Shown here: piece by piece, positions 10,451-19,257 of the stretch
How the letters are laid out: each line of letters starts with the position of its first letter
Position numbering within the stretch: the stretch's first letter is position 1
The notes under the pieces: generated by a model
What the model was told of the DNA's origin: nothing
Database searches by the model: none
Seen by the model: only the letters and a program-made list of their open reading frames with translations
IMG/VR virus record: IMGVR_UViG_3300009002_000016
Coordinates: 1-33,655 of that record
Direction: 5' to 3' (one strand)
Source of the DNA: a virus
DNA length: 33,655 nt
Made by a program: the position numbers and the translations under genes

Positions 10451-11815
10451 ATGAAAAGTTTTTTATCACTAGAACCAATCCGAGAAGCAGTTAGACTTGC
10501 TCCTGGACAACTCAAAAAACCTAATGCTAATACTGGAGAAGCTAGAATTGATATTCTAGCCAGACTCATACGAGACGAAAAGCCACTCGAATTAGCAAAG
10601 GGTGGAACCTTTAAAGTAACTGAAATCGAAGATGCCTTAGCTCAAATAGAAATATTTAAGAAGCTTGAAAAACCATTCAATCTTCATGGTGATGGTAAAA
10701 CTATCAGCTCTTCAGATCTTGGTAAAAGCAAAGTTTTTGGCGGGGGTGGTGGAGCCGGAGGCGGAACCAAGAATACTCAGATCACTGAAAGTCATCAATG
10801 CGTTATTTGTCAAGCAATGCTAGACAATGGAATACAATCAGAAGAGTTCTTTATGGATGAAGAAATCTTAAAAGCAGCATATAAAAGAGTATATGTTGAT
10901 GCAACATACGAAGAAATTGCTAGTGTAGAGGATGGTTGGTTTCATTCATCGTATGAATCAGCTAAGCTTCTTGTTAAAGATGGTTATATTAATAAGTCTC
11001 AAACATTCCATAGAAACAGTAAATTGATGAACACTGTTTACGCATACAAAAATGTAGCATATAAAAATTCAGATCAAAAACCAGTTAAAGATGATAAGTG
11101 GAATCCAGGTGATTTTTGGGCTGTTGAAAAATCTTTTGATCTTAAATCTTTAAATACAGATTCTATTGCTGGATATAATAAGTCGTTACTTCAAGCATTT
11201 GTTGATAGGCAATTAGTTGCTATATCACTTAAGCTTGTTAAAAAGAAAGCAAAAGCTAAAGAATATAATGTTAAACTACCACCAGATACTGATGATCATA
11301 AGTTACTAAAAATATTACTTCAAGGCGAAAAACGAGGAACCTTTTGGTCTAACAAAGGTGCTACTATTCTCTTTGACGAAGGTAAATTTGATCTAAGAGC
11401 TGGTTCTGCTGGCGGAGCTATCAAAGGAGAAATTGCACTTAAAACTGCTAGAGGCGGCGGTGCTGGATATGGAATCATGCAAGACGCTTTAAAGCTTGTT
11501 ATGAGAAAGAAAATACCAGAAAATGGTAAAATCAATGCAATGGCAAAGAAAATAGTTAAAGGCGATAAGCGATCTATCGCAATATTTTATAAAATGTATA
11601 GTCATTTCTATAAAAACGAAAGCTATGAAACCTTTGAAAAGGAATTACTTAGTAAAGACGTTTATTGGGTTGGATCTAAGATGGCTTGTCTATATGTTGT
11701 ATACATAGTAGATCAAAACACTGGAACAAAAGCTAATAGATGGCTAACTAAAATTATCAATTATGCTGGATCTAAATCTGAAGACTCTAGCGCATACGTA
11801 AAGGTATACGAATAA
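10451..11815 (+). CDS. large capsid-targeted protein of unknown function (possible nuclease-like fold)
   Basis: 454 residues from ATG 10451; the upstream in-frame TTG at 10415 lies inside the promoter region. AGGAG is present at 10431-10435 but 15 bases away. The leader MKSFLSLEPIRE|AV ends in an IxE|A site like that cut by T4 gp21 protease. A glycine-rich run (FGGGGGAGGG, ~97-106) is followed by HQCVICQAM. The pair WNPGDFWAVEKS and LVAISLKLVKKK resembles the D...xLK arrangement of some PD-(D/E)XK-like phage proteins, a weak match. I expect it to be packaged in the head; its activity is unknown. Confidence 0.65.
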   Translation: MKSFLSLEPIREAVRLAPGQLKKPNANTGEARIDILARLIRDEKPLELAKGGTFKVTEIEDALAQIEIFKKLEKPFNLHGDGKTISSSDLGKSKVFGGGGGAGGGTKNTQITESHQCVICQAMLDNGIQSEEFFMDEEILKAAYKRVYVDATYEEIASVEDGWFHSSYESAKLLVKDGYINKSQTFHRNSKLMNTVYAYKNVAYKNSDQKPVKDDKWNPGDFWAVEKSFDLKSLNTDSIAGYNKSLLQAFVDRQLVAISLKLVKKKAKAKEYNVKLPPDTDDHKLLKILLQGEKRGTFWSNKGATILFDEGKFDLRAGSAGGAIKGEIALKTARGGGAGYGIMQDALKLVMRKKIPENGKINAMAKKIVKGDKRSIAIFYKMYSHFYKNESYETFEKELLSKDVYWVGSKMACLYVVYIVDQNTGTKANRWLTKIINYAGSKSEDSSAYVKVYE

Positions 11816-13056
11816 TGAAAGGATTTAAAAATCAACTAGCTGAAGCCGCAGGAAAGAACACTCATATGATTCATATTGAGGATCTTATTCTTGATGGCGG
11901 AGTTAAGGGAGCGCGCCAAGCTATACTTGCATTGAGATCATTGCGAGATATGCTGTCGGGTAACGCAAAATCTGCAGTAGACGTTACTGTTAAATGGGAT
12001 GGCGCTCCCGCCGTATTTGCCGGAGAAGATCCGTCAGATGGCCAATTCTTTGTAGCAAAAAAGGGTATCTTTAATGCTAATCCAAAGATTTATAAGTCTC
12101 ATGCTGATATTGATGCTGATACTTCCGGCGATTTATCTAAAAAGTTGAAAATGGCCTTTGATTACATTAAGCCACTTGGTGTAAAAGGTGTGATTCAAGG
12201 TGACTTTATGTTTGATAATTCTGACCTTAAAACAGAAAGCATTGGTGGAGTTAAACACGTAGTTTTTCATCCTAATACAATCGCTTATGCCATTCCAACC
12301 GATTCTGCTTTAGCAAAAGAGATTAAAAGAGCTAAGATTGGTATAGTATGGCATACAACATATAGTGGAGCAACGTTCGAAACTATGAGAGCTGAGTTTG
12401 GTAGAGAAATTACACCAAAATTAAAAGCTTCTAAAGATGTTTGGATGGTCGACGCTACGCTATCTGATTTATCTGGCACAGCAACACTAACTAAAAAAGA
12501 TACTGAATTACTTAATGGTAAACTTTCAGCTGCTGGTAAACTATTTAAAAAAATATCTGGATCTACTCTTAAAGAGCTAGAATCAAATAAAGAATTAAAC
12601 CTTGTTATTAATGTATATAATAATAGAAAGGTAAGAGATGGTCAAAGAATCACAGACACTAAGAAGCATGCAATAGGTCTTATTATGTTTGTTAAAGATC
12701 GATATCAAAAGGAAATTGACAAAAGAAGCAGTCAAAAAGGAAAAGACGCGCAAATTGCAAAAAGAGATCAATTGCTTGCATTTTTTGACAAATCTAATTT
12801 AAAAAACTTACAAAACGTGTTTGATTTACAAAATTTAGTTGTAGATAGCAAATTAATTATTATAAATAAACTAAACGGTTTAAACAAAATTGGTACTTTT
12901 GTTAAAACTAAATCCGGATTTAAGGTAACCAACCCTGAAGGTTTTGTTGCAATAGATCGTATGGAAGGTGGTGCAGTTAAGCTTGTTGATCGATTAGAAT
13001 TTTCTACTAATAACTTCAGCAAAGATATTATTAAAGGTTGGGACAATCCTAACTAA
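11815..13056 (+). CDS. capsid-targeted ligase-like nucleotidyltransferase
   Basis: 413 residues, start overlapping the previous stop by one base. Leader MKGFKNQLAE|AAG has an LxE|A site. After it, motifs of the covalent nucleotidyltransferase (DNA/RNA ligase, capping) fold appear in order: VKWDGAP (nucleophile candidate Lys60, motif I), VIQGDFMF (near residue 130, motif III position), NPEGFVAI (Glu375, motif IV) and VKLVDR (Lys389, motif V). Ligases use the Lys to form a nucleotidyl intermediate for sealing nucleic acid. The III-IV distance is long for a minimal ligase. Similar phage proteins carry only DUF names (I recall DUF6267), so activity is inference. Confidence 0.6.
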   Translation: MKGFKNQLAEAAGKNTHMIHIEDLILDGGVKGARQAILALRSLRDMLSGNAKSAVDVTVKWDGAPAVFAGEDPSDGQFFVAKKGIFNANPKIYKSHADIDADTSGDLSKKLKMAFDYIKPLGVKGVIQGDFMFDNSDLKTESIGGVKHVVFHPNTIAYAIPTDSALAKEIKRAKIGIVWHTTYSGATFETMRAEFGREITPKLKASKDVWMVDATLSDLSGTATLTKKDTELLNGKLSAAGKLFKKISGSTLKELESNKELNLVINVYNNRKVRDGQRITDTKKHAIGLIMFVKDRYQKEIDKRSSQKGKDAQIAKRDQLLAFFDKSNLKNLQNVFDLQNLVVDSKLIIINKLNGLNKIGTFVKTKSGFKVTNPEGFVAIDRMEGGAVKLVDRLEFSTNNFSKDIIKGWDNPN

Positions 13057-13074
13057 ATGGAACCGAGGATAAAA

Positions 13075-13461
13075 ATGAAATCATTTAAGGAACACGAAGC
13101 AGAACTATCTGAAGATAGTGGCGATTTTTCAGAAGCTATGTCACTTGCACATAGAATGAAAATGAAAGCTAGCTTCAGAAAAAATAAAGCTAAAATTGCT
13201 CTAGGTAAAAAGAAAGCAGCAAGAAAATTAGCATCTCCAGAAAAACTTAAATCACGAGCAACTAAAAAGGCTCGCGACATCATGATTCAAAAAATTCTTA
13301 AAGACAAGAAGAAGGGTGATCTATCATTTGCTGGCAGAGCTGGTATTGAAAAGAGATTAGCATCTAAAAAAGGAGCAATCGCAAAGATTGCTAAAAAGTT
13401 ACTACCGGCAATTAAGAAAGCTGACAGGGCTAAACTAAAAAGTAAAGGTGGTGACAAATAA
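13075..13461 (+). CDS. very basic capsid-targeted protein, probable internal head DNA-binding protein
   Basis: 128 residues. ATG 13075 is chosen since GAGG (13065-13068) is 6 bases upstream; an earlier in-frame ATG at 13057 would add only a few residues. MKSFKEHEAELSE|D and GDFSE|AMS give leader-like sequence with protease-like sites. The rest is extremely rich in Lys, Arg and Ala (KNKAKIALGKKKAARKLAS; KKAIAKKLLP-like helices), as in DNA-packing proteins. A related family is common in marine T4-like phages. Probably packed with DNA inside the capsid. Confidence 0.7.
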   Translation: MKSFKEHEAELSEDSGDFSEAMSLAHRMKMKASFRKNKAKIALGKKKAARKLASPEKLKSRATKKARDIMIQKILKDKKKGDLSFAGRAGIEKRLASKKGAIAKIAKKLLPAIKKADRAKLKSKGGDK

Positions 13462-13462
13462 A

Positions 13463-14650
13463 ATGGAATTTAAGAGTTTTAGCGAATATTTAACTGAAGC
13501 TAAAGGCGAAGTATACTTCGTTTTTGGTAGATTTAATCCACCAACTTCAGGTCATGAGAAACTTTTTGACAAGCTAAAGAAAACTGCTGGTAGTAATCCT
13601 TATCGAATATATGGTTCAAAATCGCAAGATGCTAAAAAGAATCCTTTATCGTTCAAAGAAAAAATAAAATTTTTACGTAAAATGTTTCCAAAGCATGCTC
13701 GTAGTATTATGGCTGACGCTGATGTTAGACACGTTATGGACATTGCTACTAAATTATATGACCAAGGTTATACCTCAGTAACTATGGTCGCAGGCTCAGA
13801 TAGAGTTAAAGAGTTTGATACTCTTCTCAATAAATATAACGGTGTCGATTCTAGGCATGGTTTCTATAATTTCGAAAATGGTATTAAAGTTGTTTCAGCT
13901 GGAGAAAGAGATCCAGATGCTGAAGGCGTTGCTGGTATGTCAGCTTCGAAGCTAAGAGCATTTGCTTCAGATAATGATTTAGAAAACTTTACAAAAGGAA
14001 TGCCTAAAGGATATAAAGATTCAAAAGCATTATTCAATGCAATTAGAAAAGGTATGGGACTAAAAGAAACTCATATGCATCGTAAGCATGTTGAACTAGA
14101 ACCTGTATCAGAAAAAAGAGAACAGTTTGTTGAAGGTACTCTTTTTAAAGAAGGCGATGAAGTTGTATTAAAGGAAACAAATCAAATTGGTGTTATTAAA
14201 AGATGCGGCACTAACTTTTTAGTTGTCGAATTTGGCGAATGGAAAAAAAGAGTTTGGTTAGATGATGTAGAACATTTAGATGAAAAGAAATATACTGACA
14301 TGGATTCTAAAGAAAAAGCAGCATATAATAAACCAAGACCTGATGCACCCGAAAGCCAACATACAAAGAATTTTAAAAAGAAGTTTGGTGAAATGAAAAG
14401 CTTTTCACAATCATTAGAAGAAGCTGATGCTAAAGCAGCTCTTAAAAAGAAAGCTGAAAAATCAGGCATGCCTTATGGTATCCTAAAGAAAGTATTTGAT
14501 CGTGGCTATGCTGCTTGGAAAACAAGTCATAGACCAGGAACAAATCCAACTCAATGGGGATTAGCTCGAGTTAACTCATTTACAACTAAATCATCTGGAA
14601 CATGGGGCAAAGCTGATAAAGATCTTGCCGCAAAGGTAAGAGGAAGCTAA
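13463..14650 (+). CDS. capsid-targeted HxGH nucleotidylyltransferase fused to KOW-like and DUF5824-like domains
   Basis: 395 residues from ATG 13463. Leader MEFKSFSEYLTE|AKG (LxE|A). The enzyme domain has GRFNPPTSGH (HxGH-type site, residues 22-31) and MSASKLR (159-165), matching NMN adenylyltransferase/cytidylyltransferase motifs (ISSTxIR). A short beta domain (GDEVVLKETNQIGVIKRC) follows, then from ~321 a C-terminal domain with AWKTSHRPGTNPTQWGLARV, typical of DUF5824. A second leader-like MKSFSQSLEE|ADA starts at residue 311, and FVE|G at 224, so protease could separate the domains. NMNAT-like activity would make NAD; the substrate is unproven. Confidence 0.7.
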   Translation: MEFKSFSEYLTEAKGEVYFVFGRFNPPTSGHEKLFDKLKKTAGSNPYRIYGSKSQDAKKNPLSFKEKIKFLRKMFPKHARSIMADADVRHVMDIATKLYDQGYTSVTMVAGSDRVKEFDTLLNKYNGVDSRHGFYNFENGIKVVSAGERDPDAEGVAGMSASKLRAFASDNDLENFTKGMPKGYKDSKALFNAIRKGMGLKETHMHRKHVELEPVSEKREQFVEGTLFKEGDEVVLKETNQIGVIKRCGTNFLVVEFGEWKKRVWLDDVEHLDEKKYTDMDSKEKAAYNKPRPDAPESQHTKNFKKKFGEMKSFSQSLEEADAKAALKKKAEKSGMPYGILKKVFDRGYAAWKTSHRPGTNPTQWGLARVNSFTTKSSGTWGKADKDLAAKVRGS

Positions 14651-14886
14651 TGAAATCATTCAAAGAACAATCAAATTTAGATGAAGCTCCACTAGTAATG
14701 GATGATTTAGATATGGTTGATACTCTATTTAAAAAGATTAAAGAAGATATGTATAAAGCAAGACGTCAAAAGAAATCAGAAAAGAATTGGCCTACATTAC
14801 AAATACTGGCTAAACTTGCGGGTTATGGTATTACTAAGAAAGGTCAAAAGGATAGCAAATCGTTTAGGTATGATTTAAAGAAATGA
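14650..14886 (+). CDS. small capsid-targeted protein, 78 aa
   Basis: Leader MKSFKEQSNLDE|AP ends in an LxE|A protease-like site. The remainder (YKARRQKKSEKNWPTLQIL...KKGQKDSKSFRYDL) is basic. Starts on the previous stop (TAATG) and overlaps the next gene by 4 bases (ATGA). No enzyme motif. Likely an internal head protein by leader and position. Confidence 0.65.
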   Translation: MKSFKEQSNLDEAPLVMDDLDMVDTLFKKIKEDMYKARRQKKSEKNWPTLQILAKLAGYGITKKGQKDSKSFRYDLKK

Positions 14887-15122
14887 AAACTTTTGGACAA
14901 TACTTTACTGAAGGTACAGGTAAAAGCGAACCTTGGGAAGATGGATTTAAGCGTAGAGTAGTAAAAGCTACAAGCCCAGAACATTTAGATAAGGGTTATA
15001 AGTGGAGAATTAAGGGTAAAGATAGAGATGAAATATCTATTAAGCTTTACAAAAATAAACCAGATTTTGCTGAATTTAAAAAGCAAATGAAGAGAGTCGC
15101 AGGACATGAATTCGGTGGATAA
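14883..15122 (+). CDS. small capsid-targeted protein, 79 aa
   Basis: Leader MKTFGQYFTE|GTG: MKTF opening and ExG site, with Phe in place of the usual Leu/Ile. The body (WEDGFKRRVVKATSPEHL...) is basic and lacks known motifs. It overlaps its neighbours by 4 and 17 bases. Function unknown; inferred head cargo. Confidence 0.65.
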   Translation: MKTFGQYFTEGTGKSEPWEDGFKRRVVKATSPEHLDKGYKWRIKGKDRDEISIKLYKNKPDFAEFKKQMKRVAGHEFGG

Positions 15123-15783
15123 CTTTAAACAACACTTTGATTTAATGGAAGGTGTAAATGATCCTTCTATTTTTAAGGCAGTATTTCTAGCAGGTGGACC
15201 AGGAAGTGGTAAATCATTTGTTGTAGGTAGAACAGCTTTACAGGCATTAGGATTTAGATTAATTAACTCTGACGATGCTTTTGAAAAGGGTTTAACGAGA
15301 GCAGGACTTACTGCTTCTCCAGAAGACATTGCATCAGCTCAAGGTCAAGCTATAAGAGCTAAAGCTAAAGCTCTTACTGGTAAAATTATGCAAAGGGCTT
15401 TACAAGGTAGAATGGGTATTGTTATTGATGGTACCGGTAAGGACTACGCTAAGATTAAAAAGCAAGTTGATATGTTAAGAGAAATTGGCTATGCTGTTCA
15501 TATGATATTTGTTAATACAGATTTAGAAACTGCATTAGAAAGAAACAAAATGAGACCTCGATCGATAGAAGACAGTTTAGTTACTAAAATGTGGAAAGAG
15601 GTTCAAAAGAATATTGGTAAATTTCAAGGATTATTTAGAAATAGATTAATCATTGTTGATAACTCTAAAGGTTCAGATATCGATAGTCAAACAATTGGAG
15701 CGTTTAAAAGAATAAAAACTTGGGCTGCTAAAGCTCCAGAAAATGCTATTGCTGTAAGATGGATAAAGGGGCAGAAAAAATAA
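15106..15783 (+). CDS. capsid-targeted P-loop kinase (zeta-toxin/polynucleotide-kinase-like)
   Basis: 225 residues. Leader ends FDLME|GVN (LxE|G). Walker A GGPGSGKS at residues 30-37, then LINSDDAFE, GIVIDGTG as a Walker B-like strand, and the lid-type RNKMRPRS. This is the AAA_33/zeta-toxin group of small-molecule, nucleotide or nucleic-acid-end kinases. It lies three genes after the ligase-like protein, so an end-healing partner is possible, but a zeta-like sugar-nucleotide kinase is equally compatible. Overlaps the upstream gene by 17 bases. Confidence 0.75.
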   Translation: MNSVDNFKQHFDLMEGVNDPSIFKAVFLAGGPGSGKSFVVGRTALQALGFRLINSDDAFEKGLTRAGLTASPEDIASAQGQAIRAKAKALTGKIMQRALQGRMGIVIDGTGKDYAKIKKQVDMLREIGYAVHMIFVNTDLETALERNKMRPRSIEDSLVTKMWKEVQKNIGKFQGLFRNRLIIVDNSKGSDIDSQTIGAFKRIKTWAAKAPENAIAVRWIKGQKK

Positions 15784-16160
15784 TGCATAGTTTTTTAGAA
15801 CATATTGAAGAAAGATTTGGTATCTACGAAGGTCAACATGTTCCTTTAGAACAACCTATGATAGAAATAGATGAAGCTGCTGAACCTGAGTTAAATAAAC
15901 CTAAAAGGTCTAGTGGTAAAAAGAAATATGTAGTTTACGTTAAGAATCCTAAAACTGGTAACGTAAAGAAAATAGAATTTGGCGACGAAAAGGGTGGTTT
16001 AACATCAAAAATTAATAATCGTGATGCTGCACGTAATTTTGCTTCTCGACATAATTGCGATGCTAAAACTGATAAAATGAAAGCAGGCTATTGGGCGTGT
16101 CGCCTCCCGAAGTATGCTAAGGACTTGGGGCTTAAAGGTGGTGGATCTTACTTTTGGTAA
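15783..16160 (+). CDS. capsid-targeted DUF5872-like protein
   Basis: 125 residues from ATG 15783, which overlaps the kinase stop; an in-frame ATG at 15759 lies inside the kinase gene and would push the leader inward. Leader MHSFLEHIEERFGIYE|G (IxE|G), plus a second site IDE|A near residue 31. The C-terminal domain (KYVVYVKNPKTGNVKKIEFGD ... RDAARNFASRHNCD ... AGYWACRLPKYA) is a conserved phage and giant-virus domain of unknown activity with paired Cys residues. Likely head cargo or a maturation factor. Confidence 0.7.
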   Translation: MHSFLEHIEERFGIYEGQHVPLEQPMIEIDEAAEPELNKPKRSSGKKKYVVYVKNPKTGNVKKIEFGDEKGGLTSKINNRDAARNFASRHNCDAKTDKMKAGYWACRLPKYAKDLGLKGGGSYFW

Positions 16161-16419
16161 ACCGTATTGGGAAGATGGCGAGGTAAGAACCTTCGATCCA
16201 TCGATCGAAGATGCTGAATACGTTTGGCACAGAGATCATGAAGACCGGGAAATAGAAATTTTAGAAGGCGAGGGTTGGCAAATTCAATTAGAAAGATGCT
16301 TACCATGGCTATTAAAAAAAGGTATGGTGTTTGATGTAAAAAGACATGAATATCATAGATTAATTAAAGGTGTAACACCATTAAAATGTAGGGTAATAAA
16401 ACATGACAACGGCAAATGA
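16114..16419 (+). CDS. cupin-like small phage protein
   Basis: Up to 101 residues. The start is uncertain: ATG 16114 overlaps the previous gene by 47 bases, and in-frame GTGs at 16138/16141 are alternatives. The sequence VWHRDHEDREIEILEGEGWQ ... LPWLLKKGMVFDVKRHEYHRLIKG has the HxD, E and distal H spacing of a single cupin barrel and resembles a small protein of marine T4-like phages. No capsid leader is present. Function unknown. Confidence 0.65.
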   Translation: MLRTWGLKVVDLTFGKPYWEDGEVRTFDPSIEDAEYVWHRDHEDREIEILEGEGWQIQLERCLPWLLKKGMVFDVKRHEYHRLIKGVTPLKCRVIKHDNGK

Positions 16420-16702
16420 ACAAAGAGCTGCACAATCTGCTAGACTAGATAGAATTGAAGAAAAGATCGATAAACTATCTGACGCTATAATTTCATTAGC
16501 CCGCGCTGAGGAAAAAATTGCTACTATGGCAGAATTTGGTAAACAACAAGGGGAACAAATATTAACTCTTATAAATAGAGTTGATAAGTTAGATCAAGTC
16601 GTACGCGAAAACGCGGCGACAGTAAACATTATTAACAAACTATTCTGGATAGTAATCGCGGCAGCCGCCACAGCTATCACAGGAATGCTTTTCATACAAT
16701 AG
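16403..16702 (+). CDS. coiled-coil protein with C-terminal membrane anchor (XhlA-like, possible holin)
   Basis: 99 residues. A long amphipathic, heptad-like region (residues ~5-75, ARLDRIEEKIDKLSDAI...INRVDKLDQVVRE) is followed by one hydrophobic helix at ~80-97 ending at the C-terminus (LFWIVIAAAATAITGMLF). This is the layout of XhlA-type proteins that help form lysis pores. It sits in the head-protein cluster about 2.6 kb before the spanin and lipase genes. A membrane-tethered structural role is the alternative. Confidence 0.55.
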   Translation: MTTANEQRAAQSARLDRIEEKIDKLSDAIISLARAEEKIATMAEFGKQQGEQILTLINRVDKLDQVVRENAATVNIINKLFWIVIAAAATAITGMLFIQ

Positions 16703-16713
16703 GAGAAACTAAT

Positions 16714-17646
16714 ATGAGACTTAATGATAAACAAACCTTAAGCATTGCTGCGGCCGTTGGCAATGTGCTTGAAGGTAAAACAAAAAAGGAAGAAGCAAAA
16801 TATCCACACGATATGTTTCATCCAGAAACTGGGGAAAAGGAAGTAGCTAAGGACGAAGCTGATCATAAAGCTCTTGCTAAAAAAGGCTATACTCACGAAA
16901 AACCAGAAGTCGAAGAAGCCGGTGAGCCTAAAGCTAAAGGCGAAAAAGAATTTAAAGGTAAACATACCGTTAAAAAATCTGGTGAAAAAGAAGATGGTTC
17001 AGTAGTTAAGGAAGAAGTAACTATTTCAATTACCGAAGCTAAGCTTAAAGCTGGTAAAGGTAAAGCTAAGATCGACATTGATCATGAAGGCGATGACATA
17101 AAGGCTACTGAAAAGAAATTTAAAGTAAAATTTAAGAAAACTAAAGATGGTTTTGATCTTTCTGGACAAAAGAAAGACATTTTAGCTTATTTGCAATCAA
17201 ACGAGTATGATATGGATGCAGAAGATATCGAAGACCTTTTCCCAGAACTAATGGAAGATGTCAAAGCTGAAGAGAAAATCGAAGAAGGTTTCTCTAAAGC
17301 TCAGATTAAAAAGGCTGTAGAAATGGCTCTTAAATCAGATGGTAAAATGACTCCAGTTGCAAAAAAGATCGAAAAAATTAAAAAGGGATTGAGTAGCCAT
17401 AAGGAAGTAGCTGCAGCGTTTCAATTAGCTAACGAAGAAGTTAGTGAAGAAGTAGTAGCTGAAGCTTACGCTATGAACGAAGCTAAGTCTAAGATGGAAG
17501 AAGATAAAGAAAGATATCAGAAATTCTTTAAATCTGCTTTGAAAAAGTTTGGAGTAGATTCTCCAGCTCAACTTAAAGGCGATAAAAAGAAAGAATTTTT
17601 TGATTATGTCGATAAAAACTATGAGGCTGATAACGAAGAGGACTAG
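16714..17646 (+). CDS. highly charged Lys/Glu-rich protein with several protease-like sites (scaffold or internal head protein)
   Basis: 310 residues, AGGAG 8 bases before the ATG. Almost entirely Lys, Glu, Asp and Ala, with sites resembling gp21 protease targets along its length: VLE|G (~19), SITE|AK, KIEE|GF and VAE|A. T4 scaffold/core protein gp22 is likewise rich in charge and cut into peptides, so a prohead core role is plausible. The end (FKSALKKFGVDSPAQL...FFDYVDKNYEA) is a compact helical module also seen in marine phage proteins. No catalytic motif. Confidence 0.65.
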   Translation: MRLNDKQTLSIAAAVGNVLEGKTKKEEAKYPHDMFHPETGEKEVAKDEADHKALAKKGYTHEKPEVEEAGEPKAKGEKEFKGKHTVKKSGEKEDGSVVKEEVTISITEAKLKAGKGKAKIDIDHEGDDIKATEKKFKVKFKKTKDGFDLSGQKKDILAYLQSNEYDMDAEDIEDLFPELMEDVKAEEKIEEGFSKAQIKKAVEMALKSDGKMTPVAKKIEKIKKGLSSHKEVAAAFQLANEEVSEEVVAEAYAMNEAKSKMEEDKERYQKFFKSALKKFGVDSPAQLKGDKKKEFFDYVDKNYEADNEED

Positions 17647-17659
17647 TTATATATAATAT

Positions 17660-18031
17660 ATGATGAAAATATTTGACAAGCTTAATAGTAGGAATTTTGA
17701 ACTCTATGCGTCACAGCATTATAATAATCCAGAATGTTGTGACGTAGAAGAGTTTAAAGAAGATTTAACACGGTTTAAGTATCTTAAACGATTACTTAGG
17801 CGATATGAACAATATGGAGATCTTCAAGAAAGACTTATATTAAACCACATTATTGTATTATATAATGTGTTTGGTATAGAAGCCGCTAATAGAATGATGT
17901 GGTTTAAAGTAGAACCTGAACATTATACTATTTTAAAAACTTTCTTGATATTCTTAAATTATTTACCAGAAGATTCACGGGTAGAAATACCATTGGATCA
18001 AAAAATAATAAACAAACTGAGAGAACTTTAA
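17660..18031 (+). CDS. conserved T4-like phage protein (DUF7207-like), 123 aa
   Basis: Start at ATG 17660 or 17663. IFDKLNSRNFELYASQHYNNPEC followed by FKYLKRLLRRYE is a recurrent pattern in marine T4-like phages, where it is a small, helical protein of unknown role. It starts on the previous operon's end and overlaps the next gene by one base. No capsid leader. Confidence 0.7.
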   Translation: MMKIFDKLNSRNFELYASQHYNNPECCDVEEFKEDLTRFKYLKRLLRRYEQYGDLQERLILNHIIVLYNVFGIEAANRMMWFKVEPEHYTILKTFLIFLNYLPEDSRVEIPLDQKIINKLREL

Positions 18032-18624
18032 TGAGCGTAGTATCAAGAACAGCAGATTTATTTTATGCCTTTAGATTCCTAAAGTTATTAGTTTCGTCTT
18101 GGGATAAAACAGATGCTTATGAACTAGGCATTATTGACGCTAATGGTAATGTTCTTAAGAAAGCTAAAGATCGAAAAACTCCACAAGAAAAATCAGCATA
18201 CACGGTTTTTCATAGACTAGTATTTAATGTAAAACGTCTACTTAATAAGTTACCATTTGGTCAAACTAAACTAGCATCGTACGCATCAGCTTTATTTTTA
18301 ATTAAAGAAAATACAGGTCTTACTGATGATGAGATTAGAAACATATTAAACGATGTATTTGACGATTTAGAAGAAACAATTGATATATCTGAAAGCGCTT
18401 CATGGTTTGATAAGAATAATTTGTTATCACCCGGAACATATACATTAGTTCAAGATATTGCCTCTCCAAACACCGGTGAAGTAATCGCTGGTATAAATAC
18501 TAAGGTAAAGGCTATTGATTTTACAGAAGCCTATGGAGAAATATTCGGCTTAAACGTATACCAAGTGGAACACGTTTTAACTAAACAAAAAATACTAGTT
18601 ACTAGTACGGATTTAAAAAGATGA
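18031..18624 (+). CDS. conserved marine T4-like phage protein, 197 aa
   Basis: Soluble. The N-terminal half (KTDAYELGIIDANGNVLKK, YTVFHRLVFNVKRLLNKLP) and the C-terminal LNVYQVEHVLTKQKILVT are blocks I recognise from cyanophage and pelagiphage proteins of unknown function. No leader or enzyme motif. Its place among head cargo genes suggests a role in head assembly or DNA ejection, but nothing in the sequence proves it. Confidence 0.7.
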   Translation: MSVVSRTADLFYAFRFLKLLVSSWDKTDAYELGIIDANGNVLKKAKDRKTPQEKSAYTVFHRLVFNVKRLLNKLPFGQTKLASYASALFLIKENTGLTDDEIRNILNDVFDDLEETIDISESASWFDKNNLLSPGTYTLVQDIASPNTGEVIAGINTKVKAIDFTEAYGEIFGLNVYQVEHVLTKQKILVTSTDLKR

Positions 18625-18830
18625 AAAATTTTAAAGATATGTGGGAAGACGCAGCAGCAAATTCAGTAGCATCGGGTGGTGTATCTATGCCAGCGGATGC
18701 TGTTAAGAAAAAGAAAAAGAAAGATCTATACGATGGTAGAACCAAAGCAGGCCGTAAATTCGTAGAAAGAATACTAGCTAGGCGCAAAGCAGCCGAAGCA
18801 AAAAAGGAAGCAAAAAATGAAAACGTTTAA
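18621..18830 (+). CDS. small basic capsid-leader-like protein, 69 aa
   Basis: MKNFKDMWE|DAAANSVASGG resembles the capsid leaders of its neighbours, though the site is WE|D rather than LxE|A. The rest is a Lys/Arg-rich tail (KKKKKKDLYDGRTKAGRKF...RRKAAEAKK) like a DNA-binding peptide. ATGA overlap upstream, 14-base overlap downstream. Confidence 0.6.
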   Translation: MKNFKDMWEDAAANSVASGGVSMPADAVKKKKKKDLYDGRTKAGRKFVERILARRKAAEAKKEAKNENV

Positions 18831-19257
18831 AGATATTAGAGAAGCTATGTCAACTTGGACAGTGACTGTTCAGAAACCAGTTAACAAGCTTAAGAAAGGC
18901 GATAAGCAAGTTGTTAAAGCTCGTTCAGGTTTTGAAGCAATTAATAAAGCTATGAAGTTGTGGAAAGATCCTGCTCTTAAAGCTGCATCAGCAGATTCAT
19001 TTAAGATTACTAAAGAAGGTCTAGACGAAGCTAGTGATCCTAAAGTTGCTAAAGCTGTCCAAGGACTAAATGATCTTGGCAATAAAATGAAAGGTAAAGA
19101 CGCTAAACAAGTTAAGCGAATTGAAGGATTATTTCGTAAAGGTAATAAAAAAGTTATGCAAGGCGCTTTAAGAGCTCTGGATACTGATCTTAGAGATCAG
19201 ATTGCAGATGTTTTAGAACCTCAGGGCTTTTGGAAAAATGGTGTAGTAGACTTCTAA
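18817..19257 (+). CDS. capsid-targeted basic protein, 146 aa
   Basis: Leader MKTFKDIRE|AMS (IxE|A) is among the closest to the T4 internal-protein leader MKTYQEFIAE|A. A second site, GLDE|ASD (near residue 70), divides the protein into two helical halves, the second Lys-rich (KGKDAKQVKRIEGLFRKGNKKV). No enzyme motif. Last of the leader-bearing genes. Confidence 0.65.
   Translation: MKTFKDIREAMSTWTVTVQKPVNKLKKGDKQVVKARSGFEAINKAMKLWKDPALKAASADSFKITKEGLDEASDPKVAKAVQGLNDLGNKMKGKDAKQVKRIEGLFRKGNKKVMQGALRALDTDLRDQIADVLEPQGFWKNGVVDF

Follow-up and report, generated by a model that had tools for sequence, protein, structure and literature searches.

The window, a virus record of 33.7 kb (33,655 nucleotides), carries on its plus strand an open frame, 13463-14650, whose translation of 395 aa plus stop is probably a two-piece capsid-cargo polyprotein from which the prohead protease yields two mature proteins. 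The N-terminal leader would take the entire chain into the prohead, where a gp21-type prohead protease would cut after Glu12 and after Glu320, giving a nucleotidylyltransferase with a beta domain (35.2 kDa) and a basic 75-residue DUF5824 protein (8.1 kDa). The leader between the domains would be the remnant of the front end of a once separate, separately packaged gene, and both cargo proteins may be delivered into the host along with the DNA. The closest annotated relatives of the window are Kyanoviridae, i.e. T4-like marine phages. The features are listed in Table 1; in all motifs a slash marks the predicted cut.

Table 1. Features of the fused cargo gene and its surroundings, in coordinates of the window.
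Feature	Position	Strand	Basis
Putative cargo island	10451-19257	+	Scan with the strict leader pattern
Fused cargo gene	13463-14650	+	Open frame and translation; 122 fused ORFs in the fetched loci before de-duplication
N-terminal capsid leader MEFKSFSEYLTE, predicted cut after Glu12	13463-13498	+	Phe6, Glu12 and hydrophobic residue 10 in 56/56
Nucleotidylyltransferase domain, residues 15-202	13505-14068	+	PF01467 above cut-off; CoaD/NadD fold
Small beta domain, residues 219-273, FVE/G (222-225) inside	14117-14281	+	Strands in the model
Linker, residues 274-310, KKFGE at its end	14282-14392	+	Little conserved except for the HTKxFKxxFGE tail; split relatives stop there
Internal leader MKSFSQSLEE, residues 311-320, predicted cut after Glu320	14393-14422	+	55/56 fused; low model confidence at 309-318
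Predicted mature DUF5824 protein, 75 aa, four helices	14423-14647	+	PF19141; own gene in relatives; model

A ribosome-binding site (-5.1 kcal/mol) precedes the start at 13463, so that the GTG upstream at 13448 is not needed as a start. The N-terminal site of the protein reads MEFKSFSEYLTE/A, residues 222-225 are FVEG and residues 311-323 are MKSFSQSLEEADA. The earlier note had placed a second leader, MKSFSQSLEE/A, inside a multidomain protein and a DUF5824-like domain behind it, and both are borne out: in the translation the ATG at 14393 is Met311 with MKSFSQSLEE/A at 311-321, and residues 312-386 give a real Pfam match to DUF5824 (PF19141, E 1.2e-12, 48.5 bits against a gathering cut-off of 25, profile positions 43-124 of 127). 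The first domain matches PF01467 (cytidylyltransferase-like, 24 bits against a cut-off of 21) as well as phrog_395 and phrog_3041 (cytidyltransferase), and structure comparison over residues 14-202 gave the CoaD/NadD fold (NMNAT/PPAT fold) with Z about 14, the (H/T)xGH-type motif being TSGH at residues 28-31. NCBIfam equivalog models for NMN/NaMN adenylyltransferase activity gave 12-14 bits, far under their cut-offs of 112-397; synthesis of a cofactor of NAD or CoA type in the host would be a guess.

The AlphaFold model of the fused protein, for which the rows used were 56-94% identical to the window protein, has its lowest confidence at residues 1-4 and 10-13 (N-terminal leader), at 309-318, a segment that takes in the greater part of the internal leader, as well as in the loops 150-157 and 205-209, and is consistent with an exposed, probably flexible seam. 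For DUF5824 the prediction is a small domain of four helices, for which Foldseek gave no match with E under 0.001 in the PDB, the best matches in the viral library being other DUF5824-type proteins. A likeness to FliE was set aside as a weak sequence match (E 0.05, 23 residues). No mention of DUF5824 was found in the open-licence literature searched, and nucleic-acid binding by the basic DUF5824 protein in the host can only be guessed at.

To compare gene arrangements, viral contigs with relatives were fetched and the open frames on the matching strand were compared. In about 17 distinct relatives, Phage C48C1 included, DUF5824 is a gene of its own downstream of the nucleotidyltransferase, with a TAATG stop/start overlap between the two in several of them. 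These stand-alone proteins nearly always begin with a leader, for example MRFKEYINE/G, MKFKDYIEE/K, MLTFKSYLNE/D, MQSLKQYISE/N, MIKFSQYVTE/D, MLNFKNYINE/D, MKSFNNFIKE/D and, in Phage C48C1, MITFKKYLEE, located at the position equivalent to the internal leader of the window. The separate leader-bearing gene that the earlier note had proposed to look for thus exists, and its reading, by which once separate cargo genes, each with a leader, were fused into this one, agrees with this and with an internal site found in 55 of 56 fused sequences. Of the 17 split forms with a nucleotidyltransferase end listed, eight have a tail like HTKKFKQMFGDD or KFRDIFGDD directly before the stop, or stop a few residues after FGE or YGE, the tails of the remaining ones being longer. 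In the fused forms the tail that closes the split nucleotidyltransferases continues directly into the leader (KKFGE-MKSF), which places the seam where the split forms have their stop and start codons, and the distance from site to domain is alike in both. Many samples contributed to the 122 ORFs with the fused form that were counted prior to de-duplication, and the cultured phages Melnitz and HTVC008M have it too, on which grounds an assembly artefact was rejected. In these two phages the cut would be expected at EEFQLDE/KIEGL and DIEIDE/TATAA, respectively.

The direction of change is likely to be fusion rather than fission, the tree of split and fused forms being unrooted and requiring three changes, of which at least two are forced by starred branches. 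Fission, with the fused, internally cut cargo protein as the ancestor and the split state derived from it through a new stop and start, is unlikely; most split forms do fall in one part of that tree, which leaves the polarity unsettled, but the internal segment resembles a whole N-terminal leader (MKSFSQSLEE compared with MEFKSFSEYLTE), and this is simplest if it was once N-terminal. MKSF-type junctions are found in separate parts of the nucleotidyltransferase tree, intermixed with FEDF-type junctions, and the seam may be a recombination point.

Conservation was studied in 56 non-redundant fused sequences, the window included, which share ancestry and are therefore not independent, so that the counts are not probabilities. 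Phe6, hydrophobic residue 10 and Glu12 of the N-terminal leader are each present in 56/56. A hydrophobic-x-Glu site located 5-9 residues before DUF5824 is present in 55/56; the chance for such a site is 10.9% per stretch of that size, and 500 shuffles of the linkers gave a maximum of 11/56. The sole exception, L056, has LKIE, without a strict P3 match. The residues surrounding the site vary widely, as seen in MKSFSQSLEE, LTFEDFIITE, VHTFKQFVTE and EEDLEE.

It is quite unlikely that the chain is packaged, loses its N-terminal leader alone and stays one two-domain molecule, with the internal motif as a relic of the fusion. Such a reading would fit the open-licence literature, where no report of cleavage or of virion peptides was found for the fused protein or its fused relatives, and the presence of DUF5824 within other large viral proteins too, but a relic would decay, and this site is retained in nearly all fused sequences while its surroundings diverge. 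Sites are found at the seams of other cargo fusions as well. Four other kinds of fusion in relatives keep one: nucleotidyltransferase with kinase in L130 (seam EDLITE/GVYDPGIFKA, the separate kinase of the window having LME/GVNDPSIFKA), the seams MSE/GTG and VKE/GTG of L139 and L067 (window FTE/GTG), the seam MDE/A of L106 (window IRE/A), and sites behind DUF5824 in L141 and L083 (VTE/A and LEE/A).

A few further features of the leaders and tails were recorded. In the leader of T4 IPIII, residues 4 and 7 serve targeting and residues 8 and 10 processing (PMC9026906). Among internal leaders of the MKSF type, residues 8 and 10 are retained in 17/17, whereas an aromatic residue 7 is present in 0/17, against 14/16 stand-alone DUF5824 leaders and 56/56 N-terminal leaders. 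One of the 17 was shifted by one helical phrase in the alignment (FSEYNETLDE), and the majority are one kind of sequence. This was rejected as proof of a loss of targeting, also since the leaders MKGFKNQLAE and MKSFKEQSNLDE of stand-alone proteins in the window also have no aromatic residue 7. Right before the internal leader, [FY]GE (residues 308-310, 14384-14392) is present in 56/56 fused sequences, and often corresponds to the FGDD that ends the split proteins. A second cut after FGE310, which would free the leader peptide, was considered; in the alignment it would look the same as conservation of the tail. Near the C-terminus of the fused proteins of L033-L036 there is a leader-like SFKDYLKD or SFKNYLKD, recalling the C-terminal processing of T4 Alt.

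The earlier note had also raised the inner ATG as a start and a third piece released at FVE/G, and neither held up well. Pairing with the anti-SD upstream of 14393 amounts to just -0.5 kcal/mol, whereas most of the gene starts in the window reach about -3 to -7, and the Met311 codon of the MKSF-type relatives, mostly ATG, is GTG in L012, GTA in L032 and L101 and TTA in L011. Most other fused relatives have no Met immediately before the internal leader. An obligatory internal start at 14393 is argued against by these sequences. That the inner ATG is used additionally, giving a separate leader-bearing DUF5824 protein alongside the fused one, is very improbable on the same grounds, even though the ATG is retained in most MKSF-type relatives and the device is known in phage head genes, T4 gene 21 having an internal start at Met45 (PMC9026906). 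Three mature pieces through an extra cut at FVE/G can be dismissed as most improbable, for although the window has [FY][VI]E/G there, as do roughly half of its relatives, Glu224 is present in just 27/56 (elsewhere Lys, Ser, Gly, Gln, Leu, Asn and others), and the Gly and its neighbours are conserved as part of the beta-domain motif RExYVxGxLF, which leaves FVE/G unsupported as a cut site.

The two-piece reading depends on a protease of the T4 gp21 type, whose cut motif in T4 is L/I-x-E (PMC9026906). Genes for the protease and gp23 are absent from the window, itself a fragment; a gp21-type protease (Peptidase_S77, PF03420) and gp23 are encoded in 6/10 longer relatives searched, and from these we infer that the phage of the window encodes both. 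The N-termini of gp23 in relatives, read by eye, contain candidate [LIV]xE sites such as FLSE/A, FIGE/D and VNE/A. The first part of the fused protein is 35% identical (E 2e-43) to gp154 of S-CREM2, which has the leader MKNFSSFLTE/A and was detected by mass spectrometry with 3 unique peptides in CsCl-purified virions, carry-over of an abundant protein not being excluded by the authors (PMC10665884). T4 Alt is cut by the T4 protease towards both ends, at ITE-6 and LTE-619 (PMC5694885), the latter showing that a gp21-type protease is able to cut far from the N-terminus.

When the listed ORFs of the window were scanned for leaders under strict rules (M and Phe, followed by [LIVMFY]xE within 22 aa), the pattern was found at nine gene starts, 10451, 11815, 13075, 13463, 14650, 14883, 15783, 18621 and 18817, in addition to the internal Met311, and in no listed ORF outside 10451-19257; by shuffling, the chance per ORF is 0-10%, mostly 1-5%. 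A looser leader, LME/G, is located at 15106. Stand-alone homologues on other contigs carry leaders, by the looser pattern, in 126/134 cases for DUF6267, 36/37 for the kinase, 23/24 for the nucleotidyltransferase and 51/92 for the basic protein. The region resembles a cargo island, comparable to the internal proteins of T4.

Several genes of this region have features of their own. Gene 15783 contains an additional IYE/G site, and 15106-15783, with the leader LME/G, encodes a P-loop kinase/Zeta-like domain. In the DUF6267 protein (11815-13056) the capsid leader is followed by VKWDGAP, which resembles the KxDG motif found in ligases of the nucleotidyltransferase type, and the protein could be a packaged ligase-like enzyme. 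Larger combinations occur in relatives: in gp18 of Melnitz (650 aa) the nucleotidyltransferase and DUF5824 share one chain with the module of window 15783-16160. Fused ORFs of 637-1060 aa with nucleotidyltransferase and DUF5824 are present in L124, L129, L141 and L148, those of L124 and L148 running off the contig end, and a K/R-rich segment similar to window 13075-13461 is found in L124, L129 and L148.

A broader idea, to which we would give about even chances, is that in marine T4-like phages leader-bearing cargo genes repeatedly fuse, one leader packages the chain and the protease frees several injected proteins. Since the modules recur split and fused over many contigs, and Melnitz and HTVC008M are cultured, the idea is directly testable. 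If true, co-packaged cargo would get a fixed stoichiometry, and a leader motif at module borders would serve as a sequence rule for recognising packaged cargo of uncultivated marine phages. It further suggests that phage heads may mature polyproteins of injected enzymes, beyond scaffold and shell proteins.

Compared with known systems, the leader itself is like that of T4 IPI-IPIII, where a short N-terminal leader (CTS) ending in hydrophobic-x-Glu is common to unrelated small proteins and cutting by a gp21-type protease is likewise expected; these are single genes with one N-terminal leader, whereas here a second leader lies within a multidomain protein. T4 Alt, an ADP-ribosyltransferase, is also an enzyme cargo with two gp21 cuts, but what its second cut takes off is a C-terminal stretch of 63 residues, described as a propeptide (PMC5694885), while the second cut proposed here would free a domain that is its own gene in relatives. 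The cytidylyltransferase gp154 of S-CREM2 (PMC10665884) shares the enzyme and beta domains by homology, begins with the same type of leader and was detected in virions, but with 286 aa it is without DUF5824 and without an internal leader.

Polyvalent proteins (PMC5512222) also have several domains per chain and are predicted to be packaged and injected, but in the parts consulted it is peptidase domains of their own, rather than capsid leaders at the seams, that are credited with the processing. None of the domains of the polyvalent-protein set, as given in those parts, was found in the fused protein; a sub-threshold LPD25 match was obtained in the neighbouring gene 15759-16160. The ejection proteins of phiKZ and SPN3US are, in the consulted parts of the sources, packaged and matured by a prohead protease after Glu, sometimes at several sites, but the cleavages described there remove propeptides, and no report of a separation of two cargo domains was found in those parts. 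Nor was a report of a second leader within a cargo chain found in the search, which was confined to the open-licence literature and is weak evidence of absence. By its sequence the fused protein would belong to a known kind, the CTS-bearing cargo matured by the prohead protease, and the difference lies in the second leader inside the chain, before a domain that is a separate cargo gene elsewhere.
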